The notes beneath the pieces were generated by a model, which did not search any database, was not told the DNA's origin, and saw nothing but the letters and a program-made list of their open reading frames with translations. Below are positions 17,570 to 18,213 of a stretch of DNA of 18,213 nucleotides, one piece after another. Source of the stretch: Candidatus Alcyoniella australis (GTDB lineage: Bacteria > Lernaellota > Lernaellaia > JAVCCG01 > Alcyoniellaceae). Every line of letters begins with the position of its first letter. Within the stretch, counting starts at the first letter, position 1. The translations under genes and the position numbers were made by a program. Where the stretch lies: NCBI GenBank assembly GCA_030765605.1, contig JAVCCG010000060.1:1-18213 (forward strand). Reading direction: 5' to 3'.

Positions 17570-17676
17570 TCACCAGCGCTGTCACAAATCATAATCGCCC
17601 AAGCGGGCTGTTCACCCAACTCCACCGGGGCTCCTCGACGACCCCGCGGTCTATGCGGTTGTCAGAGGCCTGCCTT

Positions 17677-17734
17677 GCCGACCTGTCCGCCGTAGCTTTA
17701 GCGAAGGTGGAAGTCTATGGCGTAGGCAGGTCGG
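17677..17734. repeat. Palindromic element with nested stems
   Basis: CCGACCTG (17678-17685) pairs with CAGGTCGG (17727-17734). Inside it CCGCC (17687-17691) pairs with GGTGG (17706-17710) around a loop containing GTAGCTTTAGCGAAG. The loop is reminiscent of dispersed palindromes seen in many uncultured bacteria (from memory, not searched). The element overlaps the last codons of the YezD-like gene. Confidence 0.6.
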
Positions 17735-17855
17735 TCGGCTTGAAGTTCCGCTCGACCTTCACGTTGCACAGCTTGCTGTTCTGGAAACTGAGCGTCACCG
17801 AGCCGAAAAATCGGTCAGCAACGAGCTTTTCCAAATAGGCGATCAGCTTGTTCAT
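17715..17855 (-). CDS. Small YezD-like (DUF2292) protein
   Basis: The product is 46 aa. Residues 4-37 follow the YezD/DUF2292 pattern: a short helix (L-I-A-Y-L-E-K-L), an F-F-G-S-V-T-L-S-F-Q-N-S-K turn between two strands, and a closing V-K-V-E-R. These small proteins, of unknown function, are normally 40-65 aa, so the length is ordinary. The last residues (T-D-L-P-T-P) are encoded by the palindromic element and are not family-like, so the element may have replaced the original end. No ribosome site precedes the ATG; the promoter places the transcription start almost on it. It lies 98 bp after the Avd-like fragment on the same strand. The family call is from pattern memory. Confidence 0.6.
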   Translation of the reverse strand: MNKLIAYLEKLVADRFFGSVTLSFQNSKLCNVKVERNFKPTDLPTP

Positions 17856-17861
17856 GAGAGC

Positions 17862-17890
17862 AGAATATGGGGCTGATTCTGAAACGGCAA
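17862..17890 (-). promoter_or_regulatory. Promoter predicting a leaderless YezD-like mRNA
   Basis: On the minus strand TTGCCG (17885-17890, 4 of 6) and TATTCT (17862-17867, 4 of 6) are separated by 17 bases. Only six bases lie between the -10 and the ATG at 17855, so transcription would begin at or next to the start codon. This agrees with the missing ribosome site. Confidence 0.4.
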
Positions 17891-17953
17891 TATCATGGGG
17901 TGTGCGAAATTGTTGGAAAAAAGCGCGACAGTAACACCCGACTAAAGACGCGC

Positions 17954-18112
17954 TCAGGCCCTCAAGACGATCACAATCTCCCAGCAGGCATCCCGAAGGC
18001 GCGTGCCGATCGTGTACTTGTGGTAGCGGGAAAAGTTCTTCGCCACGTCCTCCACGTACACCGTCAATTCAAGCGCCTTCTTGTAGATCGGCAGGTGATC
18101 GTATTTCGCCAT
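17954..18112 (-). pseudogene. Truncated Avd-type four-helix-bundle protein
   Basis: The 52-residue frame (ATG at 18112, stop TGA at 17954) begins 'Y-D-H-L-P-I-Y-K-K-A-L-E-L', then 'R-Y-H-K-Y-T-I-G-T-R-L-R' near 29-40. This is the N-terminal half of the bAvd/four-helix-bundle family. Full proteins are about 110-130 aa; here only helices one and two are present. Neither alternative frame after the stop resumes the family pattern, so the loss looks like a deletion rather than one frameshift. Avd proteins bind the reverse transcriptase of diversity-generating retroelements and help mutagenic copying, while relatives occur alone in rRNA intervening sequences. No reverse transcriptase lies in the window. 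Whether the short peptide is made is unknown. The leader is highly structured. Confidence 0.6.
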
Positions 18113-18129
18113 TCAAGAAAATGCCGCGA

Positions 18130-18172
18130 CCAAGGCTTCGCCTTGGACCCACCAGAGGGGATGCCCCTCTGG
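18130..18172. repeat. Two adjacent perfect hairpins upstream of the Avd fragment
   Basis: CCAAGGC (18130-18136), loop TTC, GCCTTGG (18140-18146) makes a seven-pair stem. CCAGAGGGG (18152-18160), loop ATG, CCCCTCTGG (18164-18172) makes a nine-pair stem. They are separated by five bases and lie 17 bases upstream of the Avd start on the minus strand. There is no T-run, so a terminator is unlikely; a mobile or dispersed palindromic repeat fits better. Confidence 0.65.
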
Positions 18173-18178
18173 ACTCCC

Positions 18179-18210
18179 CCAAATGACCAAAGAACCAAAT
18201 TACCAAATTT
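18179..18210. repeat. Tandem 8-bp repeat at the window edge
   Basis: CCAAA recurs at 18179, 18187, 18195 and 18203, exactly eight bases apart, giving four units of the form CCAAA plus three variable bases. The array may continue past 18213. Its low GC contrasts with the rest of the window. Confidence 0.6.
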
Positions 18211-18213
18211 CAC

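Follow-up and report, generated by a model that had tools for sequence, protein, structure and literature searches.

The open reading frame (ORF) on the minus strand at the right-hand edge of the window is very probably the 5' stub of the avd gene of a diversity-generating retroelement (DGR), copied along with a target gene of the DUF1566 type and the hairpins that follow it. DGRs are a bacterial means of rewriting the cell's surface-protein genes. The locus is best read as a scar of a known kind and not as a complete DGR. The window, 18,213 nt in length, is the whole of contig C60 from a genome bin of 4.29 Mb that is 98% complete. The features at its right-hand end are as follows.

17,715..17,855, minus strand: DUF2292-like ORF, 46 codons (weak), of a kind that follows avd stubs
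17,954..18,112, minus strand: avd 5' stub ORF, 52 aa, from the ORF call and matches to Avd profiles
17,972..18,112, minus strand: Avd-homologous part of the stub, codons 1-47, helix 1 and most of helix 2
18,087..18,213, no strand: 127 bases shared without mismatch with the beginning of contig C1, from the comparison of C60 and C1
18,130..18,146, no strand: hairpin 2, perfect, CCAAGGC-GAA-GCCTTGG, 7-bp stem, in the interval between target-gene end and avd start
18,152..18,172, no strand: hairpin 1, CCAGAGGGG-CAT-CCCCTCTGG as read on the minus strand, 9-bp stem, candidate retrohoming hairpin
18,179..18,213, minus strand: leader GTGAAATTTGGTAATTTGGTTCTTTGGTCATTTGG at the contig end, from similarity to the spacers of relatives

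An Avd-like stub at a contig edge

The stub ORF (17,954-18,112, minus strand) translates as MAKYDHLPIYKKALELTVYVEDVAKNFSRYHKYTIGTRLRDACWEIVIVLRA, followed by a stop codon. An earlier note, made from the sequence alone, had called it an Avd-type fragment and asked for a search of its 52 residues against bAvd. Profile searches bore this out, with matches to phrog_3206 ('Avd protein of DGR'; E = 1.2e-10), to the NCBIfam family DivGenRetAVD (NF033474; E = 1.4e-5) and to Pfam bAvd (E = 0.0024), scores that point to similarity beyond chance. They lie under the curated cut-offs, which is no surprise for a fragment; L196, a full-length relative linked to a reverse transcriptase (RT), is also under the NCBIfam cut-off (50 versus 80 bits), and DivGenRetAVD was matched by all 18 members of our alignment. 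Codons 1-47 correspond to the N-terminal 40% of a DGR Avd. Homology stops after codon 47, placing the truncation junction in avd at 17,971/17,972, and the last five residues and the stop codon are unrelated to Avd.

Upstream of the avd start the window continues for 101 bp, and from about 8-12 nt past the target-gene stop codon the spacers of relatives resemble this edge. The description of the region as palindrome-rich and lower in GC was accurate: positions 17,570-18,213 have 54.8% GC versus 64.1% for the window, and the interval upstream of avd holds two perfect hairpins. The stem of hairpin 1 recurs unchanged after target genes in G006_C230 and G002_C41, with a related stem in C100, and hairpin 2 has the same or a similar counterpart in G002_C24, G006_C230 and G006_C347. 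As between stub and hairpin, the latter is likely to be the part that matters. The exact 127-base overlap with C1 fits an assembly graph (k=127) broken at a repeat; the missing node should then hold a target gene, just past the edge of this contig. On the other side of the stub, the window contains no template repeat (TR) or RT. The DUF2292-like ORF found there also follows the avd stubs in C1 and G002_C33, and its end is overlapped by a GC-rich imperfect inverted repeat, CCGACCTG...CAGGTCGG, at 17,678-17,735.

Full-length relatives

The family context was examined at 26 bacterial-genome loci and 30 viral-contig loci. Most of the 26 are full-length Avds with a DGR RT 0.4-0.8 kb downstream, and over the two sets together the relatives are mostly full-length, with such an RT a short way downstream. 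Matches to phrog_3206 in distant genomes, most of which are S23-like four-helix proteins, were left uncounted. Plasmids yielded no close relatives. In two other bacterial loci (L099 and L104), the N-terminal half of avd is fused by deletion to the C-terminal end of an apparent DGR RT, which looks like another route of decay.

The best full-length relative found was L196, from a viral contig (118 residues, 60% identity over the stub). Its locus reads DUF1566 target with variable repeat (VR), 50-odd bases, avd, TR and RT, a complete DGR in which 20 of 21 TR/VR mismatches fall at template A. Because L196 is a complete DGR of the same type, the DGR origin of the stub is firm. The L196 Avd is predicted to form a four-helix bundle (helices 7-24, 35-55, 59-82 and 89-117; mean pLDDT 91), and a fold search aligned this prediction with the solved Avd 4dwl and the DGR RNP 8ub7 at a TM of about 0.8; a profile search of the PDB by sequence found no Avd. 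Mapped on the predicted fold, the stub takes in all of helix 1 but of helix 2 only residues 35-47, about 60%, making the earlier mention of 'the first two helices' right for helix 1 and slightly generous for helix 2. With part of helix 2 and all of helices 3 and 4 absent, the bundle is incomplete and the stub is probably functionless as a protein.

The same layout in other genomes

The note had offered two explanations, one of them a solo member spread with the repeats around it, and the unit does recur, in the host genome (on C60 and on C1) as well as in other genomes of the phylum. The second stub of the host bin, at C1:102, has 68 codons and 95% DNA identity to that of C60. A 208-aa ORF with a match to HEPN_RiboL-PSP (L004:636-1262 on G000:C1; E = 2e-5, below the cut-off) sits between this second stub and a DUF2292-like ORF.

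Among the seven genomes of the phylum in our collection, an avd start lies 86-123 nt past the stop codon of a DUF1566 target at G006_C347, G001_C57, G002_C24, G002_C33, G006_C230 and, in degenerate form, G005_C23. A GACCGTGAAATTGGTAATTTGG-like leader precedes it at all six loci (in G006, G001, G002 and G005), four of which have one or two perfect hairpins, and the DUF1566 targets of these relatives are lipoprotein genes. The avd copies of the phylum end after about 9 to 68 codons, and none of the seven genomes contained a complete avd of the stub's type; several target cassettes carry no avd at all.

A Desulfobacteraceae genome (L093) has a 50-codon stub flanked by two DUF1566 target genes, with no full avd found elsewhere in that genome, and a phage-like contig (L198) has a 37-codon stub after a tail-fibre-like target gene. 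No RT was found near either stub or near that of L088 (PMZC01000223.1, the same target region as G006_C347). Thus, stubs behind targets form the same layout in three unrelated settings. The link to a retroelement, which the note had inferred, is supported by the diversified targets that in relatives immediately precede the fragment, and also by target genes with DGR signatures within the host genome.

Diversification of target genes

In the VR codons of the phylum's DUF1566 targets, the first and second positions are near-random and the third is fixed as C. Across 14 such VRs, three of them from C157 of the host genome, C occupied the third position in 303 of 395 codons, versus 738 of 2,100 in the gene body. 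For 12 VRs, a 33-base core was set against an inferred AAC/AAT template, and the A positions of that template account for 73 of the 79 differences; the count is partly circular, as the template was derived from the VRs. Against the independent L196 template the figure was 65 of 93, and most of the remaining 28 differences lie in two columns where that template has T. As a control, three complete DGRs with FGE targets in G006 and G004 had 22 of 22, 23 of 23 and 14 of 15 mismatches at template A.

The three host VRs belong to tandem DUF1566 lipoprotein targets at G000:C157:61900-63887 (L187), the VR of the third ending only a few bases from the end of the contig; it is plausible that this end is the upstream partner of C60 or C1. 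The host genome also has FGE-sulfatase-type targets with the DGR-like ending LGFRCARD on C32, C100 and C111 (L140, L142 and L141, respectively). The C111 target is complete, that of C32 breaks off where the VR begins and that of C100 where it ends, and the assembly thus seems to break at variable regions. Target-gene ends with DGR-like VRs are found at the edges of C157, C32 and C100, and breaks exactly at VRs would fit either repeats or population variation.

Search for the DGR core

Together with several diversified target genes, the host bin contains the two avd stubs, no full avd and no RT (PF00078); as the bin is a MAG, absence from the organism is unproven. The note had regarded a genome without an RT as evidence against its reading, and the bin is such a genome, yet the diversified VRs show that such an enzyme acted. 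A search of the seven genomes with a 21-base pattern for the TR of the DUF1566 targets, which would read ...GCGTGGAACGTCAATTTCAACAACGGCAACGTC..., recovered mostly target genes, a few chance matches and no TR. Three RT candidates from other genomes of the phylum were judged from their sequence not to be of the DGR type: those on G001 C34 and G003 C130 are group II intron-like, and that on G003 C111 resembles the RT inside a large CRISPR-type protein. We infer that the RT and TR either reside in unbinned DNA or were lost recently. Binning loss would be a ready cause, because a repeat-bounded core is easily lost.

Origin of the stubs

A parent element would have had the order target gene with VR, one or more hairpins, avd, TR and RT. 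Its target cassettes would have been copied both as tandem duplicates and to remote locations, each with its downstream tail, and where the tail broke within the hairpins or avd, a truncated avd would have stayed behind as a scar. A remote cassette may still be diversifiable in trans, because retrohoming needs the VR, the 3' homology block and the hairpin, and not a local avd or RT. The other explanation of the note, the scar of a DGR, stands as regards the piece of avd, although a stub on a copied target cassette is a better reading than a whole DGR decayed in place.

Two junctions in the host genome are what tandem duplication would leave if breakpoints fell in avd or a hairpin and in a small ORF of about 110 aa. 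On C157 the tail of target 1 ends inside the hairpin, where it joins the 3' part of this ORF, with target 2 next in line; on C1 it is the avd stub that, at its codon 68, runs into this ORF. In the cassettes examined, right-hand breakpoints lie no more than about 330 bp from the target stop codon. The small ORF (MKLRYM...; L166:2101-2427 and L193:5540-5872) is complete in G005_C23 and G002_C33, and its fragments recur beside DGR target genes in the phylum. It had no Pfam match, and its C-terminal part also lacked NCBIfam and PHROG matches.

The intact stubs of C60, C1, G006_C347 and G002_C24 differ pairwise by 8-14 synonymous versus 0-3 nonsynonymous base changes, and this divergence therefore arose in genes still making Avd. 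Such a pattern requires that truncation was recent in each lineage or that the stub is under selection; an old, freely decaying scar would look different. Under selection, the truncated Avd of about 33-68 residues, or the DNA encoding it, would still be useful beside remote targets, for example as a small peptide that binds RT or RNA or as a component of the retrohoming target. Four intact stubs from three genomes that differ almost solely at synonymous sites are in line with such a use, as is the retention of the avd start behind target genes in unrelated lineages. However, the stubs end differently at each site and run into unrelated tails, helices 3 and 4 are absent, several target cassettes carry no avd, the G001 stub has nine residue differences from that of the window, two of them internal stops, and the G006_C230 stub is a decayed copy with a deletion. 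We consider a useful stub improbable. There is a similarly slim chance that the first 30-50 codons of avd, or their DNA, are a recurrent and perhaps selected tag of remote targets, helping a distant RT complex to recognise or diversify the cassette in bacteria of several phyla and in phages. Recent truncation is preferred over selection because stub ends and tails differ everywhere, and it predicts that a full avd and RT were recently present.

Two further readings place the ORF in other settings. The contig edge could be part of a functional and complete DGR whose avd is intact, the truncation being an assembly chimera; the breaks of C60 and C1 do fall in the same 127-mer, upstream of avd, in a repetitive region that is hard to assemble. 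Against this, the junction is set about 115 bases in from the border of the shared repeat, other truncations of the same gene occur in independently assembled genomes, and the DUF2292-like flank recurs behind the stubs in C1 and G002_C33, which makes a chimera very unlikely. That the ORF instead encodes a four-helix protein of the 23S rRNA-inserted type (S23/IVP), unconnected with DGRs, is scarcely credible: the fold family is the same and there is a weak match to PF05635 (E = 0.024), but DGR Avd models score far better, and relatives adjoin DGR RTs and sit behind DGR targets. Membership of S23/IVP was rejected at 15.3 bits against a cut-off of 33.8. A recently truncated avd, carried along with a target cassette, accounts best for the stub.

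Comparison with known systems

The stub shares the motifs MAxYDHLPIYK and KYTxG with DGR Avds (BPP-1 bAvd, PDB 4dwl; NF033474; PHROG 3206), as well as the order behind a target gene and, in its full-length relative, the fold. Unlike in those systems, only the first 40% of the protein is present, and the bin yielded no TR or RT.

Target genes remote from the DGR core, and others left over after its loss, are known from Treponema denticola (PMC4891356) and Thiohalocapsa PB-PSB1 (PMC10907252). The cassettes here are alike in having VR-bearing targets away from a core and redundant parts that are duplicated and lost. They differ in that a broken avd start tags the remote targets and that no core was found in the bin; avd goes unmentioned in the Treponema paper (PMC4891356). 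In the literature searched, we found no account of remote targets being repeatedly accompanied by a broken avd start. Remote targets are already known, and their recurrent tagging by avd stubs is apparently undescribed.

The VR, the 3' block and the hairpin are needed for retrohoming and are enough to direct the machinery to a different gene (PMC3240598). GC-rich stems of 7-10 bp stand behind the VR in BPP-1 (PMC3240598) and in nanoarchaeal DGRs (PMC4372165), as they do here, and three-base loops are shared with the nanoarchaeal elements (PMC4372165). Unlike in either, there are often two serial hairpins here, about 50 nt behind the stop codon, with loops of CAT, CTT and GAA (and one four-base CTTG), of which only GAA fits the published GRA/GRNA consensus.

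Avd stubs show how target families grow. In this phylum, stub and hairpin mark arrays of diversified surface lipoproteins for which no RT has been binned. A large DGR survey looked for targets near the RT and states that remote ones are missed (PMC8144416); an avd stub and hairpin right behind a target gene offer a simple search mark for such cassettes.
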